From contig NZ_CP055930.1 of NCBI RefSeq assembly GCF_013927005.1, forward strand, positions 1,302,001-1,366,000: a stretch of DNA of 64,000 bases, in the 5' to 3' direction. The position numbers were made by a program, and so were the translations under genes. A model generated the notes under the pieces. That model had not been told where the DNA came from. It ran no database searches and saw nothing but the letters and a program-made list of their open reading frames with translations. Numbering within the stretch: position 1 is the stretch's first letter; every line of letters begins with the position of its first letter. Source of the DNA: Enterobacter sp. RHBSTW-00175 (GTDB lineage Bacteria; Pseudomonadota; Gammaproteobacteria; Enterobacterales; Enterobacteriaceae). Shown here in pieces: positions 55,894-63,748 of this stretch.

Positions 55894-56002
55894 ATTTACT
55901 CCCGATCGATACATCATCGTGGAAGTATAAAGGATTGATTATGCGTTGTTTATAAAAACAGCAGGCAGGTGCGAATGGCTGGATTGCTGCGGGGAGTTAC
56001 TT

Positions 56003-56008
56003 TATAAT
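56003..56008 (+). promoter_or_regulatory. -10 element of ileX promoter
   Basis: TATAAT ends 10 nt before the mature tRNA 5' end, followed by the GC-rich stretch ACCGCC typical of stringently controlled tRNA promoters. The -35 box is not clear. Confidence 0.55.
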
Positions 56009-56018
56009 TCACCGCCAC

Positions 56019-56094
56019 GGCCCCTTAGCTCAGTGGTTAGAGCAGGCGACTCATAATCGCTTGGTCGCTGGTTCAAGTCCAGCAGGGGCCACCA
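56019..56094 (+). tRNA. ileX: tRNA-Ile2 (anticodon CAT, lysidine-modified)
   Basis: A 76-nt tRNA with acceptor stem GGCCCCT/AGGGGCC, D loop, anticodon stem GGCGA/TCGCT, anticodon CAT at 56052–56054, TTCAAGTC T loop and encoded CCA end. The sequence and place next to mug are those of E. coli ileX, whose C34 is changed to lysidine by TilS to read AUA. It marks the left end of the genomic island; tRNA 3' ends are frequent integration sites. Confidence 0.95.
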
Positions 56095-56104
56095 AATAAA
56101 ACAA

Positions 56105-56137
56105 GGAGTTAGATGAGAAATCGTCTGACTCCTTTTT
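56105..56137 (+). terminator. Terminator after ileX
   Basis: GGAGTTAGATGA, GAAA loop and TCGTCTGACTCC form a 12-bp stem (with G·T pairs) followed by TTTTT. Confidence 0.85.
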
Positions 56138-56152
56138 CGTTTTATACGAATC

Positions 56153-56175
56153 GGGTCAGGTAATGGGTCAGGTAA
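56153..56175. repeat. Tandem 11-nt direct repeat near island end
   Basis: GGGTCAGGTAA occurs at 56153–56163 and 56165–56175, just downstream of ileX and before the first island gene. It may be a recombinase arm site or an integrase gene remnant left after loss of the integrase. This is an inference. Confidence 0.4.
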
Positions 56176-56196
56176 GGAATTGCCTCCCTGCCCTCT

Positions 56197-57030
56197 TCAT
56201 CCCGCTGCCAGCATCCCCGGATAGTGCTTCGCCACGATATCATTCATCTTTTCTGTCAGATCGCACCGTTTAAAAGTGATGTGTGCGGTTCCCTTTTGGA
56301 AGTAACGGATACTGAAAAAATCATCTTCGTAAACATCCTTTGAAGGGTTGTCCCGAATATGCTCCATCAACCGTGTAGTGACATCACCACGGTTGTCGGG
56401 TATCGGTTTACCATCGAGCAGAAACAGCATTCTCTCCATGTCCGCTAGTTGATCCCGCCGCCAGCCCCAGTTCAGACTAAATCCCCAGCGATTATGACTT
56501 ACCAGATTATTGATGATGATCTTCTTACCGAAGCTGCAGGGACTATTGGTTTTGTAATCCCACGACAGCCCTTTGAAGACATTGATAATGCCACGCTCAA
56601 ATACATCCATTTTGTTCAGATGTAGCTGCTCAAAAGTACTGAGGATATTCACCTCACAGATAGCAGGAAGATCGCCCTCCTCCAGGTTCTTGTGCCACTG
56701 GTCGCGAGCCTGCGCATCCATCAAGGCCATCATGCCGGACTTCAGCATCAAATCGCGCCAGATACTGCGGTCAATATTGCGGGTGATGGCAGGCATCGCT
56801 TTATCAACCTTCTCAGTCAGCCAGCTATCGTAACGGTGCCCGGCTTTCATCGCCCAGTCTTGCGCTGTACCCCCGCCAATTTCTGAGGTTAACCGTGAAA
56901 TGGCATCAAGCTGCTGAATGAGTTGTTCTATCTGTTTCAGTGCGGTATCACGGCCAGTGACCACACGTTCAATATTGGTTGAAAGGATAAGTTCGTTGTG
57001 ATCTGTTAACACGTCGGGTTCTGTTTGCAT
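56197..57030 (-). CDS. DUF4942 domain protein
   Basis: A 277-residue soluble protein of the DUF4942 family, common in CP4-type islands next to the CbtA/CbeA toxin-antitoxin genes. The N-terminal half is helical and charged; the C-terminal half has the SLNWGWRRDQLADMERMLFLLDGKP region and a FSIRYFQKGTAHITFK strand pair. The molecular role is unknown. It is the last gene of the radC-cbeA-cbtA minus-strand group and 113 bp from cbtA. Confidence 0.82.
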   Translation of the reverse strand: MQTEPDVLTDHNELILSTNIERVVTGRDTALKQIEQLIQQLDAISRLTSEIGGGTAQDWAMKAGHRYDSWLTEKVDKAMPAITRNIDRSIWRDLMLKSGMMALMDAQARDQWHKNLEEGDLPAICEVNILSTFEQLHLNKMDVFERGIINVFKGLSWDYKTNSPCSFGKKIIINNLVSHNRWGFSLNWGWRRDQLADMERMLFLLDGKPIPDNRGDVTTRLMEHIRDNPSKDVYEDDFFSIRYFQKGTAHITFKRCDLTEKMNDIVAKHYPGMLAAG

Positions 57031-57143
57031 CGTTAATCGTCCGTAAAAGCAAACACGCCTGCCGAAAGTGGCAGGCGCATTATGCGATGAATAAAAAGGG
57101 TGGAAAGCGCAGAGATAAAAATCAGGAATGAGGCTCGAAGAAT

Positions 57144-57464
57144 TTAAGTATTTATTAATCCGGTAGCTCGTCTGGCTCGGAGAATATCGGTAGCGGTCAG
57201 GAATGGCGTCTGCTCCTGCCAGGTGAATCCTTTGCGGTCAGTACGCACCAACTCATAACGTTCCACTAAGAAATTCACCGCATCAGCCAATGTTATTCCC
57301 GCTTCGATATGCTCCTGGATGGCAGCGTCATCATGGAATGGCGTGTCGTTAAGCGTCAGGCCGTAATGGTGCTCCAGCAGATACGTTAACAATTGCTGCC
57401 ACACCTGTACGGGCGACAGGCGTGACGAAACCGGCACCGTGGCCGGTACAGATGAAATGTGCAT
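57144..57464 (-). CDS. cbtA: CbtA/YeeV-family toxin (type IV toxin–antitoxin)
   Basis: A 106-residue protein with the CbtA core: [35 protein letters not shown] start, [26 protein letters not shown], and [11 protein letters not shown] at the end. It stops soon after that motif, so it lacks the C-terminal tail of E. coli CbtA (about 124 residues). CbtA-type toxins bind MreB and FtsZ and block cell shape and division. It lies 67 bp after the CbeA gene, as in the CP4 islands. Whether the shorter tail affects toxicity is not known. Confidence 0.88.
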
Positions 57465-57531
57465 GTGTTGAGTCTCTTAAGAAAAGGAACGGAAGATTTG
57501 AAGGTTTACAAAGCTGAGATGATGCTGAAGA

Positions 57532-57870
57532 TCAGTCCTTAACCTGATTTGAGGGATAAATTGCGATATACACATACCCATGACTGCCCAACGTATCGGC
57601 TTCACAGGTTAGCCCGTTACGGTACAGCGTGACGCAGTGCGCGCACCGGGGATTCAGCTCACCGGAGAGCAGCATCAATTCCAGATGCGCTACAAAATGC
57701 GGAAAGGATTGATCCAGATCTCGGGCCTGCATCTCGCTGAATGTGCCAGTGAATCCTGCCCGCTCTGCCAGAAAATGAAGACGATGACCTTCCTGCACCA
57801 GCCGGGCTCCAAAGCACAGTGTGATATCTCTTTTAAGACCCCAGGTCTGGATAGTGTCTTTATTCATCAT
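57532..57870 (-). CDS. cbeA: CbeA/YeeU-family antitoxin
   Basis: A 112-residue protein with the family's TPCFGARLVQEG-like segment (here ITLCFGARLVQEGHRLHFLAERAG), LDQSFPHFVAHLELMLLSGELNPR and CEADTLGSHGYVYIAIYP. CbeA counters CbtA not by binding the toxin but by stabilising MreB and FtsZ polymers. The start at 57870 has AGGA upstream; an adjacent ATG at 57867 is an alternative, and the frame extends into radC without good start signals. It sits between radC and cbtA. Confidence 0.9.
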   Translation of the reverse strand: MMNKDTIQTWGLKRDITLCFGARLVQEGHRLHFLAERAGFTGTFSEMQARDLDQSFPHFVAHLELMLLSGELNPRCAHCVTLYRNGLTCEADTLGSHGYVYIAIYPSNQVKD

Positions 57871-57880
57871 TTTATTCCTG

Positions 57881-58360
57881 TTAAAGAAGGCCATGTTCGG
57901 CGAAGGAGAATATCTGCCTGCTACCGACAATCAGGTGGTCGGGCACGCGAATTTCCACCAGCATCAGCGCCTGTACCAGTCGCTGAGTGACAGCCTTGTC
58001 TGCCTGGCTCGGGACAACCTCCCCGGACGGGTGATTGTGGGCAAATATCACTGCCGCCGCATTAAAGTACAGCGCACGTTTTACCACCTCACGGGGATGG
58101 ACTTCGGTGTGACTGAGTGTGCCGGTGAACAGCGTTTCGTGGGCAAGCAGCTGGTTCTGGTTGTTGAGATACAGCACGACAAACTCCTCCCGCTCAAGGG
58201 TGCCCATCTTCAGCCTAAGCCAGTCGCGGGCAGCCTGTGTGGAGGTGAATGCAACACCTGGTTCGCGCAGATGCTGGTCAAGCAGATTGAGGGCACGTTT
58301 GATGGTGCGCAGTGAGGTCAATGGCAGTTCCGGTGTAAACAGAGTGAGTTGTTTTTCCAT
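57881..58360 (-). CDS. RadC-family (JAB domain) protein, YfjY-like
   Basis: A 159-residue RadC/JAB protein with the metal motif in FAHNHPSGEVVPSQAD (about residues 110–125) and the HETLFTGTL segment. It is a short island form without the N-terminal helix-hairpin-helix region of chromosomal RadC. The biochemical role of such proteins is unsettled; they travel with the CbeA/CbtA pair. It is the first surviving gene of this minus-strand block. It lies 10 bp before cbeA. Confidence 0.9.
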   Translation of the reverse strand: MEKQLTLFTPELPLTSLRTIKRALNLLDQHLREPGVAFTSTQAARDWLRLKMGTLEREEFVVLYLNNQNQLLAHETLFTGTLSHTEVHPREVVKRALYFNAAAVIFAHNHPSGEVVPSQADKAVTQRLVQALMLVEIRVPDHLIVGSRQIFSFAEHGLL

Positions 58361-58517
58361 GGCAGAACTCCTTAATCAAAGGTAGTAAGGATGGCACTGG
58401 ATTCGGTACGGCAGACGTAATGTCTGTATTCGAGCAGGCAGATGGCAATATGAGTGCAAAATGCATGAGGAAACAGAGTCAATAATGACCCAGTGGTTCA
58501 TACCCAATCACAGTGTT

Positions 58518-58556
58518 AAAAATAAAAAATCCCGCAATCCAATGAGGATGCGGGAG
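58518..58556 (-). terminator. Orphan minus-strand terminator
   Basis: On the minus strand TCCCGCATCC, a short loop, GGATTGCGGGA (one bulge) is followed by TTTTTTA. It would end a transcript coming from the right, but no intact minus-strand gene is present there, only the remnant at 58618–58734. Confidence 0.8.
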
Positions 58557-58617
58557 GATGCAAGGGGATAATATCTATCTGAAAAAGTTTAGAAAAATGG
58601 ATTTTTCCCGAGACCTA

Positions 58618-58734
58618 TTATGAAATTTTTTCGATCAGATACTTCTCGGATATGATCGTCTGCTGAGTGCCTGCAGGAATTAAGGTGACATCGAGCCTGC
58701 ATGTGGACACAGGTGGAGCGGCGAGGTAATGTCT
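58618..58734 (-). pseudogene. Possible C-terminal remnant of a lost gene
   Basis: On the minus strand an open frame of 38 codons, with no start codon or ribosome site, ends at a TAA (58618–58620). It reads HYLAAPPVSTCRLDVTLIPA and then ends in TIISEKYLIEKIS. The composition resembles a real protein end and a terminator follows about 60 nt later. I read it as the surviving 3' end of a gene replaced by the neighbouring OLD/UvrD cassette. A chance frame of this length is possible. Confidence 0.35.
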
Positions 58735-58782
58735 TTAAGGAATCATTTAGCTATTATTTGACAGTATCTTGAGGGACTTAGA

Positions 58783-60441
58783 GTGCGCGTTAAATCGATT
58801 AAGCTTACCAATTTCAAGAAATTCAAAGATGAACATCTTGAGTTCAACGATGACGTAAATATCTTTGTAGGTGATAACAACGCCGGTAAAAGTACGATTC
58901 TGGAAGCCTTGGAGATGGTTCTTAATTACAACTATCGTGGCCGTCCCTTCAACACCGAGTTAACACCAGACATTTTTAACAAGGATGCAGTCCAGCAATT
59001 CTTGGCTTCTGACAAGTCAGCCAAGCATCTGCCTAGCTTGACGATTGAGGCATTCATCGATGGAGTGCCAGAATATCGAGGGGTGAATAACTTCCTGAAA
59101 GCCGATGCGCAGGGGATCTCGGTGCAAGTGCGCTTCGATGCTACGCTTGAGGACGTGTATGTCGACTACCTGAAGACAAACCCTAACATTACGAGTATTC
59201 CGATCGAGTTCTACAAGCTGGAGTGGTTGGATTTCGGATGGAACCCCATTAAGGCTGTAGCCAAGAAATTCAGGGCGTTGTACATCGATCCGACCCGCAT
59301 CCACCCGACTTTGGGTAAAAATCAGTACATCTCGACCATCCTGAACACTGCGTTGAACAAAGAGGAACTGGTTAAGCTGACTCTCAATTATCGCGAGAAT
59401 CAGCAGGTGTTCAACAACTCGGGTGAGGTCAAGATGGTCAACACTGGCCTAGATACAGACCACTTGATCACGGACAAAAAACTCTCCATTGCCGCGAGTA
59501 CCTTACCTGCCGGATCTATTCAAACCAGTCTTCAACTTGAGGTGGATGACGTACCTTTCCAGTTCATCGGCAAGGGTGAACAGAGTAATGTGCAGATCAA
59601 ACTCGCAATTCAGAACAAATCGAAGGATATCGATTTGGTGATGATGGAGGAGCCCGAAAACCACCTTTCGCACACTAACCTTAATAAGCTGGTGCACTAC
59701 ATCGAGAGGCAGCGGGGCACCAAACAGCTCTTCCTTACAACTCACAGCTCGTATGTGCTCAATAAGCTGAGCATTGATAAAATCTGCCTTGTCCAGACGG
59801 GATATAAGCGCCTTCATAAGCTTGATCCTGCAGTCGTCAAAACCCTTAAGCGATTGCCGGGCTATGATACCTTGCGTGTGGCATTGTCGCGCAATGTGAT
59901 CTTGGTAGAGGGACCGTCGGACGAGCTGGTACTCAAGAAGATCTACCTTCGCAAACATGGTCGACTGCCGGAGCAAGATGGAATCGATATCATTGTGGTG
60001 CGCGGAGTCGGGTTCGATACTTTCATCTCAGTGGGCATGGAGATTGGTACCAGTATCAACGTGCTCCGGGATAACGATGGAGCCTATGATGAGAACGTCG
60101 TGAAGGCCCGTGAGGCCTATGCGGCCTATCCCAATATCAAGCTCATCTCCTCTGAGAATGATGAAGAGTTTTCGCTTGAGCCCGCGATGATTTATGCCAA
60201 TGCAATCGACCTAAAAACGCTGAATGCTTTCGCTGAGGAGGTGTTATCCAAGCAGACCTACAACCTCTACAAGAAGGTTGCCGACTTGAACAAACGGCGC
60301 GAATTTCTTATCGAGTGGTTCCGAAGCGTTAAGGGAAACGGTAAGGGCGCTCGCAAGGTCGATTCGGCTATCAAGCTGTTTGATGGGAATATAGATTTCA
60401 AGTACCCGGCCTTCCTCGATGAGGTGTTCAACTTTGGCTAA
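58783..60441 (+). CDS. gajA: OLD-family ATPase/TOPRIM nuclease, GajA-like (Gabija)
   Basis: A 552-residue protein starting at GTG (GAGGG 7 nt upstream). The N-terminal ABC-type ATPase has Walker A GDNNAGKST at residues 30–38 and Walker B/Glu in VMMEEPENHLSH (about 286–296), with the THSSYVLNKL switch region shortly after. The C-terminal TOPRIM domain has Glu376 in VEGPSDE and Asp430/Asp432 in LRDNDG. This is the class 2 OLD layout, defined by pairing with a UvrD-like helicase gene, which here follows directly with an overlap. In Gabija, GajA nicks DNA when nucleotide levels fall during phage infection. Anti-phage activity of this copy is inferred; the sequence looks divergent from the Bacillus prototype. 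Confidence 0.85.
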   Translation: MRVKSIKLTNFKKFKDEHLEFNDDVNIFVGDNNAGKSTILEALEMVLNYNYRGRPFNTELTPDIFNKDAVQQFLASDKSAKHLPSLTIEAFIDGVPEYRGVNNFLKADAQGISVQVRFDATLEDVYVDYLKTNPNITSIPIEFYKLEWLDFGWNPIKAVAKKFRALYIDPTRIHPTLGKNQYISTILNTALNKEELVKLTLNYRENQQVFNNSGEVKMVNTGLDTDHLITDKKLSIAASTLPAGSIQTSLQLEVDDVPFQFIGKGEQSNVQIKLAIQNKSKDIDLVMMEEPENHLSHTNLNKLVHYIERQRGTKQLFLTTHSSYVLNKLSIDKICLVQTGYKRLHKLDPAVVKTLKRLPGYDTLRVALSRNVILVEGPSDELVLKKIYLRKHGRLPEQDGIDIIVVRGVGFDTFISVGMEIGTSINVLRDNDGAYDENVVKAREAYAAYPNIKLISSENDEEFSLEPAMIYANAIDLKTLNAFAEEVLSKQTYNLYKKVADLNKRREFLIEWFRSVKGNGKGARKVDSAIKLFDGNIDFKYPAFLDEVFNFG

Positions 60442-61588
60442 TGAATTCTGGATCGCCGGTGCAGGATCAGGCAAAACCTATAAAATCATCCAGGACGCCA
60501 TTAAGGTGATAGAGGCAGGTGGCCGTGTATTGGTAGTCACCTACACGACGAACAACCAAGCCGAGATCCGTTCTCGTTTCGTGGAGCTATATGGCAAAAG
60601 CAGTGATGATTTTGTCGTCAAAGGCTTGTTTTCCTTTTATCTGGAAGACTTAGTGAGACCCTACCAAAATGTTGTGTTCCCTGAGCGCATTACCACCACA
60701 GTGTTCACCGAGCATAACCCTCACCTGATGCCGGGTACGAAGAATTGGTATCCCAATAGGGGAGAGAAAATTGGCGGTACGTTAAACCCACTCCATTATC
60801 TGACCTCCTGCAAGACAAAAGCATACACCGGCCTACTAGCTAAGCTGGCTACTAGGATCGCTAGCGCGACAAAGAATGCACCAGCCAAGAGGTTGAAAGA
60901 TATCTATCATCGGGTCTTTTTCGATGAGGTTCAGGATTTAGTTGGTTGGGATTACGATGTTATCAAAGCGCTAAGTAAGATAATGTCTGACTCAATTTGC
61001 TGTGTCGGCGATTTCCGTCAAACTATTTACACGACTACGTTCGGTCAAAAGGCACCGCATACTCCTGCGCAAAAGATCCAATATTTTCAGAAGATAAATT
61101 TTGAGCAGCGCTCGCTGCCGAGAAACCGTAGATGTATTCAAAAAATCTGTGATCTGTCCGATACGATTCATCCCGGTCTCTATGAAAAGACACTGTCAGA
61201 GGTGGAAAATGTTCCTGATGAGGTGGCCCATCACTACGGTGCCTTCGTCATCAAGTCTTCGCAGGTGAGCGATTATCTCACAACGTTCAAACCTCAGGTT
61301 TTGCGATGGTCATCGTCCATGGGTAGAGCCTATTTGCCGCCTGATCTGGGCTGTCACACCTTCGGTTCCAGCAAAGGTCTCGGTTTCGATCGTGTCCTGA
61401 TTATTTCACCAGAGAAACATCTCAAGTATCTAGGCGGCGACCTCAGGGTGTTCGACAAAGATAAAACGGAGGAGTCTAGAAACAAGCTGTACGTGGCCAT
61501 TACCCGAGCTCGTTACAGCCTGGCGTTTGTCGTTGAGGAAGAGCATTTTACAAATATAAAGCTGCCGCATTGGATTAGACCTGTGTAA
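60434..61588 (+). CDS. gajB: Compact UvrD-like helicase, GajB-like (Gabija)
   Basis: About 384 residues from a TTG start at 60434 with GAGG 9 nt upstream, overlapping the OLD gene by 8 bp; an ATG at 60419 in the same frame is an alternative. Superfamily 1 motifs are complete: AGAGSGKT (I, residues 8–15), VTYTTNNQ (Ia), DEVQD (II, 164–168), GDFRQTIY (III, 192–199), LPRNRRC (IV), SSKGLGFD (V) and YVAITRAR (VI, 353–360). It is much shorter than UvrD (about 720) and shorter than the usual GajB (about 490). It should partner with the OLD nuclease. Confidence 0.83.
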   Translation: MANEFWIAGAGSGKTYKIIQDAIKVIEAGGRVLVVTYTTNNQAEIRSRFVELYGKSSDDFVVKGLFSFYLEDLVRPYQNVVFPERITTTVFTEHNPHLMPGTKNWYPNRGEKIGGTLNPLHYLTSCKTKAYTGLLAKLATRIASATKNAPAKRLKDIYHRVFFDEVQDLVGWDYDVIKALSKIMSDSICCVGDFRQTIYTTTFGQKAPHTPAQKIQYFQKINFEQRSLPRNRRCIQKICDLSDTIHPGLYEKTLSEVENVPDEVAHHYGAFVIKSSQVSDYLTTFKPQVLRWSSSMGRAYLPPDLGCHTFGSSKGLGFDRVLIISPEKHLKYLGGDLRVFDKDKTEESRNKLYVAITRARYSLAFVVEEEHFTNIKLPHWIRPV

Positions 61589-61734
61589 GTCGATGCTAAC
61601 GTCTAACCATTTAACTTCCGCTTGTCACTCCCAGCAGACCTTACAGCCAGAAGCGGATACATTTACCTGAAGAATGAAACTGACCACTGCGCTCATCGTT
61701 CGGAAGTGCCAGGGCTATCGGTGGTGAATCAGCG

Positions 61735-61775
61735 ACAAAAAAAGAAAACCCCCGACCGCCGGAGGCAATCAGGGT
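61735..61775 (-). terminator. Terminator of the YfjR–YfjT-like gene group
   Basis: On the minus strand AACCCTGATTGCC, TCC, GGCGGTCGGGGG forms an imperfect stem followed by TTTTCTTTTTTT. It lies just after the stop of the minus-strand gene ending at 61801. Confidence 0.75.
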
Positions 61776-61800
61776 TGTTATGGTAGGGAAAGCGCAGCCG

Positions 61801-62271
61801 TCAGTCGTTAGTGCAGTCCGCTAATGTTGGCAGGACCTTTTGTGCATTCTGCACATCAGGGCTGAACGTCCCCACTTTACGATTATTGATGTAGACCTCA
61901 AACTGCCCTGCCTGACGAATATCTTTGATGAATTCATACCAAGCATTGTCACCGTTGCGCCAGCCCAGGAATGAAGGGATAGCATATTGCTGGTGGTTCA
62001 TCACCACCGTGACATCTTTTCCTTCATCGTGTGAACTGACCATACTGTCGTCAGGTAGCGTGACGATAACCGAGTGCTGATAGATACCATTGTTATCGGG
62101 ATTACCGGTGCAGTTGAGCGTAAATTCCAGCCCCTTTTCGCTGGTAATGGTGTATTCCGCATTTCCCTGCCCGTATCCCTGCCCCCACAAGTTCGGGATG
62201 GCCTGTGCGCTGAATGCCGTCAGTGCGGAGCCCGCCACCAGCAGAATGCGAATATATTGATTGAGTTTCAT
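61801..62271 (-). CDS. Secreted island protein, YfjT-like
   Basis: A 156-residue protein with a signal peptide (cut after Ser-Ala-Gln-Ala, residue 24) and a mature beta-rich domain with two cysteines (Leu-Asn-Cys-Thr-Gly and Leu-Ala-Asp-Cys at the end) that may bond in the periplasm. Size and operon place agree with E. coli YfjT of CP4-57. No function is known. It is the last of four minus-strand genes headed by the WYL regulator. Confidence 0.72.
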   Translation of the reverse strand: MKLNQYIRILLVAGSALTAFSAQAIPNLWGQGYGQGNAEYTITSEKGLEFTLNCTGNPDNNGIYQHSVIVTLPDDSMVSSHDEGKDVTVVMNHQQYAIPSFLGWRNGDNAWYEFIKDIRQAGQFEVYINNRKVGTFSPDVQNAQKVLPTLADCTND

Positions 62272-63046: not shown

Positions 63047-63748
63047 TTAATCCTGCCCTTCCGGCACAGAACTGAAGGAAAGCAGCGACTGTTGTATAAA
63101 ACGGAAATGGGGCAATGCCTGGATAAATACCGGGTTCTCCACCAGCCGACATAGGTTTTCGCTGCGTCTGAATGCTTCTGTTGTGGGTTGCACTACATGT
63201 ATTTCATCCAGTGTAAATACCGCGATATGGCCGTTGTATCCGGCGACCAGATACCAGACATCCTGATACGCAATCAGTCTGCAGGGCTCTGCACGTTCAC
63301 AGCGTTGCCCCTCGGCAATCAGCGTGACCCGCTGGCGGTCAGTGATGGCTTTTATCAGCCGGTAAAAAGACAGTGAGCCTGCCGGGGTGGTAACTTCCGG
63401 CGAGGGCCAGGTCAGGCAGGGAGCCTCATCACACTCCAGCAGAGTGGTAACCAGTCGTCTGTCGAGACCCGGAAACATCCCGGCAATTCCCGCCCGGTGG
63501 GCAAACGTCAGCACGTCCAGCTCGCGCAGCGCGGTGTTGCCTGCTGCACGCAGGCGACAGGAGCCATGGTGATATTCGAGGTCGAGATACATCAGGCGCT
63601 CACGAAAATCACGGCGCAGTGTACGTACGGACACGCCAAACTCAGCGGCCAGCTTGCGTACGCTCAGCGTTTCGCCTGCCACCAGGCGGCTGATAATGAG
63701 AGACAGTCTGACGGCCAGCCGGTCATGACGACGAACTGCCTGAGTCAT
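63047..63748 (-). CDS. yfjR: WYL-domain transcriptional regulator, YfjR-like
   Basis: A 233-residue protein with an N-terminal helix-turn-helix (about residues 10–65; [20 protein letters not shown]) and a C-terminal WYL-type ligand domain ([19 protein letters not shown] at about 155–173). GGAGG lies 7 nt before the ATG. WYL regulators often control defence or SOS-type genes and sense nucleic acids or nucleotides. It is the first of the four-gene group here and matches YfjR of CP4-57. Its targets may include this group and the nearby defence cassette. Confidence 0.82.

Follow-up and report, generated by a model that had tools for sequence, protein, structure and literature searches.

How much of a helicase does a Gabija defence system need? 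The question is raised by two overlapping genes on the plus strand of a 64,000-nucleotide stretch of DNA from Enterobacter sp. RHBSTW-00175 (contig NZ_CP055930.1, positions 1,302,001 to 1,366,000), here called the window, whose numbering is used throughout. The first gene, gajA (58783-60441, GTG start), encodes a 552-residue OLD-type nuclease composed of an ABC ATPase, a TOPRIM domain and C-terminal helices; the second, gajB (60434-61588, TTG start), overlaps it by 8 nt and encodes a 384-residue, UvrD-like protein of the superfamily 1A (SF1A) helicase type. An earlier note on this DNA had reported the overlapping pair, read it as a class 2 OLD nuclease with a UvrD-like helicase and hence as Gabija, and suspected a distinct subtype from its divergence and unusually short helicase. 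Our analysis bears out these points: both genes are present on the same strand, PADLOC scores, structural matches to Bacillus cereus chains and intact active sites support Gabija, and the 2B subdomain of the helicase appears to be missing throughout a deep family. With a probability of roughly three in four, we consider the pair a Gabija defence system of a subtype whose GajB lacks 2B, a known kind of system, named so by existing tools, in an apparently undescribed form.

The locus has what defines a two-gene Gabija: an ABC ATPase-TOPRIM gajA with complete Walker A, Walker B and TOPRIM sites, an SF1A gajB directly downstream, and matches to the family models. A four-subdomain GajB, which is a trait of the B. 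cereus prototype and lies outside that definition, is lacking, 2B being absent. The hidden Markov model search proposed in the earlier note was carried out with PADLOC models and returned GajA at 700 bits (E 4.5e-211) and GajB at 439 bits (E 2.3e-132), the next-best models outside this branch reaching 116 and 86 bits, respectively. The best models were PDLC00102 and PDLC00098 for GajA and PDLC00148 and PDLC00140 (369 and 365 positions long) for GajB, and the same four score best for the window pair and for three distant relatives (L054, L065 and L085). These models represent the same family as the window pair, under the plain PADLOC name Gabija, and since they are already specific for this branch, the Gabija identity is not new in itself. 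Structure prediction points the same way: the top Foldseek match of the GajB model is a B. cereus GajB chain, and the GajA model matches a B. cereus Gabija chain, with the nuclease fold of B. cereus GajA matched over its full length. With an E-value limit of 0.01, phmmer found no direct match between the window GajA and that of B. cereus, and GajB matched its B. cereus counterpart only at E ~0.1. A sequence profile ranks a Thermus class 1 OLD protein over B. cereus GajA, and in structure the two tie. The outcome that the earlier note had named as counting against Gabija, a first protein that fits some other OLD family better and scores with no Gabija model, did not occur.

Other systems fit less well. 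PARIS was rejected, as the best AriA model scored 73 bits on GajA versus 700 for the GajA model and no DUF4435 partner was found beside the pair; retron and Septu effectors were rejected as well, the best NCBIfam scores being 49 bits for PtuA and 32 for Eco8 against cut-offs of 500 and 250. Neither a DUF4435 partner nor a reverse transcriptase with its noncoding RNA was found in the seven neighbouring open reading frames and the further island frames that were scanned. As a separate observation, one gammaproteobacterial OLD gene met in our control searches (L140) reaches 693 bits with a PADLOC GajA model, yet a helicase frame was looked for in its locus and not found; solitary OLD genes can thus be mislabelled when a GajA model is used by itself.

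GajA carries Pfam AAA_15 and OLD-like_TOPRIM domains, both above cut-off, and all of the ATPase and TOPRIM residues previously listed as intact (Lys36, Glu289/290, Glu376, Asp430 and Asp432) were located in it. Conservation was assessed in an alignment of 59 sequences, in which the window protein is joined by 58 relatives at 31-90% identity. Lys36 of the Walker A motif GDNNAGKS (residues 30-37, 58870-58893) and Glu289-Glu290 of Walker B (MMEEPEN, 59647-59652) are invariant, as are Glu376 of the TOPRIM motif EGPSD (within LVEGPSDE, 59908-59922), whose Asp380 is at least 90% conserved, and Asp430 and Asp432 of the DxD motif (RDNDG, 60070-60078). Two further elements concern the C-terminal helices (465-534) of the structure model, which contain Glu466 and Lys525: Ser464-Leu-Glu466 (60172-60180), at the start of these helices, with proposed metal-B ligands and an invariant Glu466, and the invariant Lys525 (60355-60357), a proposed catalytic lysine in model helix 523-534. 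In the Burkholderia pseudomallei class 2 OLD protein (BpOLD), the two-metal and catalytic residues are E400, E404, D455, D457, T506, E508 and K562, as far as the available portion of the source goes (PMC6755086). Their counterparts in GajA, assigned by eye, would be E376, D380, D430, D432, S464, E466 and K525, five of them identical and two conservatively changed, with Asp380 and Ser464 replacing E404 and T506.

GajB departs from expectation. The earlier note had credited it with all superfamily 1 motifs, and motifs I, Ia, II, III, IV, V and VI are indeed there: motif I or Walker A (AGAGSGKT, 60455-60478), motif II (DEVQD, 60923-60937; D, E, Q and D invariant in 85 sequences, the window included), motif III (GDFRQTIY, 61007-61030), motif V (TFGSSKG, 61358-61378) and motif VI (YVAITRAR, 61490-61513). 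The Q motif, an N-terminal motif of superfamily 1 helicases, was not seen at the GajB N-terminus, because only 13 codons, none of them for glutamine, are open upstream of the TTG start. Between motifs IV and V (61142-61357), the site of 2B in other SF1A helicases, the sequence runs as uninterrupted 2A. Motifs III to VI span 161 residues in GajB versus 353 in the host's own UvrD, and the structure model, a confident one, shows 2A without any insert. From spacing and model together, GajB is predicted to lack the 2B subdomain, the regulatory lobe of the studied Gabija helicase.

Could the short helicase be an artefact? The start of gajB had been placed at ATG 60419, but TTG 60434, at the overlap TTGGCTAA, is more likely because the annotated copies in Escherichia coli EC102 and EC1515 and the homologue P0121 begin at the equivalent codon. 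That ATG is the sole other start codon between the TTG and the TAG at 60392 that closes the frame, so gajB cannot be extended far upstream. A frame-shifted or truncated helicase was rejected, since GajB is short in all 84 relatives measured and its length is constant across the family. Another relative (L021) was left out because its 1,357-residue frame runs into unknown bases, for which reason an insertion there was also rejected. The 2B-bearing controls were the host's UvrD, a second UvrD/Rep-like helicase of the host and the published B. cereus numbers, a 693-residue superfamily 1 frame of the host (L129/L130) being left out. We relied on these because searches for long GajB proteins with PDLC00078 and PDLC00099, in 143 genomes each, gave none, the finds being L139, which belongs to this branch, and L140 and L141, both of them OLD genes in whose loci no helicase frame was found.

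Using an alignment of seven GajA sequences (the window and six relatives, 33-67% identity), we took the best-scoring 80 of at least 434 confirmed relatives and added nine annotated regions; the 80 genome loci therefore sample this branch, not all Gabija. A helicase frame lies directly downstream of gajA in 85 of the 89 loci, one of them being that with unknown bases. By the rule of our script, four loci have none, although three retain traces: a 242-residue helicase fragment (L035), an intact 383-residue helicase behind a split gajA (L045), and a 360-residue helicase-like remnant separated from gajA by insertion-type genes (L087). In these three the pair was disrupted independently, a hint that the system has been lost more than once; in the fourth (L044), a short contig, no helicase was recognised. 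In a further locus (L034) the gajA frame is shortened to 376 residues. Locus counts are not independent, because many loci are near-identical; the scores of L014 to L020 are the same, and L020, a Planctomycetaceae assembly with the Stutzerimonas score, may be contaminated. Chance can be ruled out for the pair on account of the PADLOC E-values and the ratios of nonsynonymous to synonymous substitution rates (dN/dS): 0.05-0.08 for gajA (five comparisons, dS exceeding 2 in one of them) and 0.08-0.14 for gajB (four comparisons, with a fifth saturated). By these ratios both genes are under purifying selection.

The family is wide and thinly spread. Among the matches listed, record titles include isolates of Pseudomonadota, Actinomycetota, Bacteroidota and Bacillota, along with metagenome assemblies from other phyla, the phyla being assigned from record names and some assemblies possibly contaminated. 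GajB was matched strongly (E 4e-87 or better) in 3 of 274 gammaproteobacterial genomes, one match having an internal stop, and, with the genome of the window counted, in three of 60 in the relatives set; at least 80% of the pair is present at near identity in 6 of 5,426 E. coli genomes. Within any one group, gajAB is rare. Three of 50,697 records in a phage collection matched, all below 60% identity. On two E. coli plasmids (L136 and L137) gajA is truncated and adjoined by recombinase genes, and the second also has a Tn3-type transposase gene and, nearby, a beta-lactamase gene.

Against the best-known Gabija, that of B. cereus VD045, likeness and difference are both plain. The two share gene order, an intact OLD ABC-TOPRIM active site, an SF1A partner with a DEXQD box, and the nuclease fold. 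In the Protein Data Bank chains (8SM3, 8TK1, 8J4T and 8IUD) B. cereus GajA has 578 residues and GajB ~494, and the latter is described, in the accessible part of the report, as having four subdomains, of which Cacc/2B covers residues 314-416 (PMC10681800), the region without counterpart in the window GajB. The class 2 OLD proteins of B. pseudomallei and Xanthomonas campestris (594 and 595 residues) likewise adjoin a UvrD-like gene and, from what is available of the source, seem by eye to have in common with the window GajA the E-x3-D/E, DxD, S/T-x-E and lysine positions (PMC6755086). GajA is ~40 residues shorter than these; by the length trait of class 2 (~50 residues above class 1) its 552 residues exceed TsOLD (528) and fall short of B. 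cereus GajA (578), and many distant members of the family have ~526-550. The Pseudomonas aeruginosa PA14 Gabija is proteobacterial and lies on a mobile island. SF1A cores without 2B are on record in PcrA-s of Mycoplasma pneumoniae (PMC3720892) and in 2B-deleted E. coli Rep (PMC13238157); these are stand-alone helicases, and the portions of the two reports at hand mention no OLD nuclease partner.

What would such a pair do? GajA cleaves DNA and assembles as a tetramer, and GajAB forms a 4:4 complex, according to the accessible text of PMC10781630. In PA14, the available part of PMC12407980 describes a non-abortive Gabija that requires the active sites of both GajA and GajB and prevents phage DNA from circularising when RecBCD does not hold its ends. 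We propose that GajA acts as the effector, an ABC-ATPase-gated, two-metal TOPRIM nuclease, and that GajB is an SF1A motor pared down to 1A, 1B and 2A, with no 2B and no Q motif seen, whose 1B lobe is the most likely point of docking on GajA. When a phage genome enters, GajB would most likely engage its free ends or unwound or single-stranded stretches, and the ATP cycle of GajB would license or guide the cutting by GajA; linear phage DNA that RecBCD does not handle would thereby be cleaved or kept from circularising. What the data show for gajAB are the genes and motifs, the predicted folds, purifying selection, a mobile defence island and the missing 2B; the complex, the recognition of ends, the motor activity and the anti-phage effect are inferred.

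The motor step by itself is close to an even bet. In this helicase class the 2B lobe is a known brake, and its deletion activates Rep monomers (PMC13238157, from the part available); the naturally 2B-less PcrA-s unwinds DNA, with no stable DNA complex in the gel shifts covered by the accessible text (PMC3720892). Because of these two precedents, a GajB motor would not be expected to inhibit itself. One may go further and suppose that 2B is absent by design, GajB being a monomeric motor that is constitutively permissive, with its control handed over to GajA, a proposal that we regard as tentative and rather doubtful. The strongest contrary point comes from B. cereus, whose GajB showed, in the portion of the report available, no detected unwinding, alone or with GajA, no detected DNA binding and, in a short form, no ATPase (PMC10681800). 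These results tell against a motor and favour a different role, in which GajB binds ATP and regulates GajA structurally, 2B having been lost because helicase function was not needed. The window GajB has no room for a long N-terminal extension, a further point for such a regulator, which we judge a serious contender falling somewhat short of even odds; it concerns the GajB step only, and the system would remain Gabija. It is on account of the B. cereus results that a motor is placed merely slightly ahead of a switch.

The setting of the genes bears on whether the target is phage at all. They lie in a 30.4-kb island between 47-bp exact repeats, in the ileX tRNA gene (56019-56094, plus strand, CAT anticodon), its integration site. 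ARAGORN calls this tRNA Met; the E. coli NCTC9064 counterpart, beside mug and rpoD, is annotated tRNA-Ile, in keeping with the ileX label of the earlier note. The left repeat, attL, is the tRNA end (56048-56094, plus strand); the second copy, attR (86490-86536), and a tyrosine integrase gene (84976-86292) lie beyond the window in the same numbering. A Fic/DOC-family gene (84357-84989), which may encode a toxin or a regulator or be mere cargo, overlaps the end of the integrase gene. The island's right flank is present in 35 of 36 genomes of the genus, and in one (G008) it starts ~200 bp from the tRNA, fitting an empty site. From the left the island includes a DUF4942 gene, a CbtA/CbeA toxin-antitoxin pair, a RadC-like gene and gajAB. 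Next come genes for a YfjS-like lipoprotein, a WYL regulator and a GTPase, followed beyond the window end by a BREX type I operon (65419-80352; L096, L097 and L142). By PADLOC the operon reads BrxA, BrxB, BrxC, PglX, HEC-01A, HEC-01B, PglZ and BrxL, the HEC-01 pair (an AAA ATPase and a DUF4276 protein) sitting between pglX and pglZ. The PglX protein scores 1,884 bits with a type IIG restriction-modification model versus 1,544 with the PglX model, and is read as PglX because of its place in the operon. The HTH-WYL gene (63047-63748, opposite strand), ~1.7 kb before brxA, could encode a BREX regulator.

Comparison with other genomes suggests exchange at this site. A congener (G012) carries a gajB 82% identical within its own repeat-bounded stretch, the spacing from ileX being similar in the two genomes (4.4 and 4.3 kb), and in E. 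coli EC102 the shared DNA runs from ~120 bp before gajA to ~54 bp past gajB. E. coli NCTC9064 (L138) has the same left-end genes beside ileX and no gajAB copy; because different cargo follows those genes, the place of gajAB looks like a slot whose contents can be swapped. In NCTC9064 a YiiX-like NlpC/P60 hydrolase gene and a 392-residue hypothetical gene are found there, possibly undescribed cargo of the same slot.

Might the pair, then, be a class 2 OLD nuclease-helicase serving DNA repair or an anti-plasmid role? Three copies (L131-L133) lie among conjugation, urate and arsenic genes with no recognised defence neighbour, and OLD proteins outside defence exist, the archaeal Cran1 among them, as the available part of its description has it. 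The patchy spread given above and the common island with BREX argue against this, and relatives elsewhere stand beside Shedu, Qat, AbiE, TIR-domain genes and an AAA-DUF4435 pair of PARIS type. Of 17 annotated regions we set aside the copies with gajA in two pieces (L134) or broken (L136 and L137) and the region with no copy; a neighbour that we labelled defence-related from its annotation occurs in six of the remaining 13 with an intact pair, two of the six being one shared island. A non-phage role is therefore unlikely in our estimate. In E. coli EC1515 and CU42ET-1 (L010 and L135) gajAB sits in an island beside TIR-domain and DUF4238 genes that may be a further defence pair; the CU42ET-1 copy adjoins the tmRNA gene ssrA.

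That the pair is a decayed or non-expressed remnant is very improbable: broken copies exist elsewhere (the truncated plasmid gajA genes, L087 with its insertion-type genes) and a consensus scan upstream of gajA found no sigma-70-type site on the plus strand (two sites, both on the minus strand, against 4.6 expected by shuffling), but both frames are intact with their active-site residues and dN/dS is 0.05-0.14. Within 55900-62000 the tRNA was the single Rfam match at the gathering threshold.

We found no account of a GajB without 2B in the open-access literature, a body of text that leaves several Gabija papers uncovered, and if the PA14 and ECOR94 Gabija systems belong to the 2B-less branch, part of the novelty falls. 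Were GajB the permissive motor considered above, it would be the counterpart of 2B-deleted Rep inside a nuclease complex, and the trigger or DNA-processing mode could differ from that of B. cereus Gabija. The role of the helicase in Gabija is unsettled, and a widespread, naturally 2B-less GajB makes the question testable: if it unwinds or translocates, motor activity is part of Gabija; if it does neither, the motor fold would seem to be used as a switch. Results obtained with B. cereus Gabija may also not carry over to the 2B-less branch.

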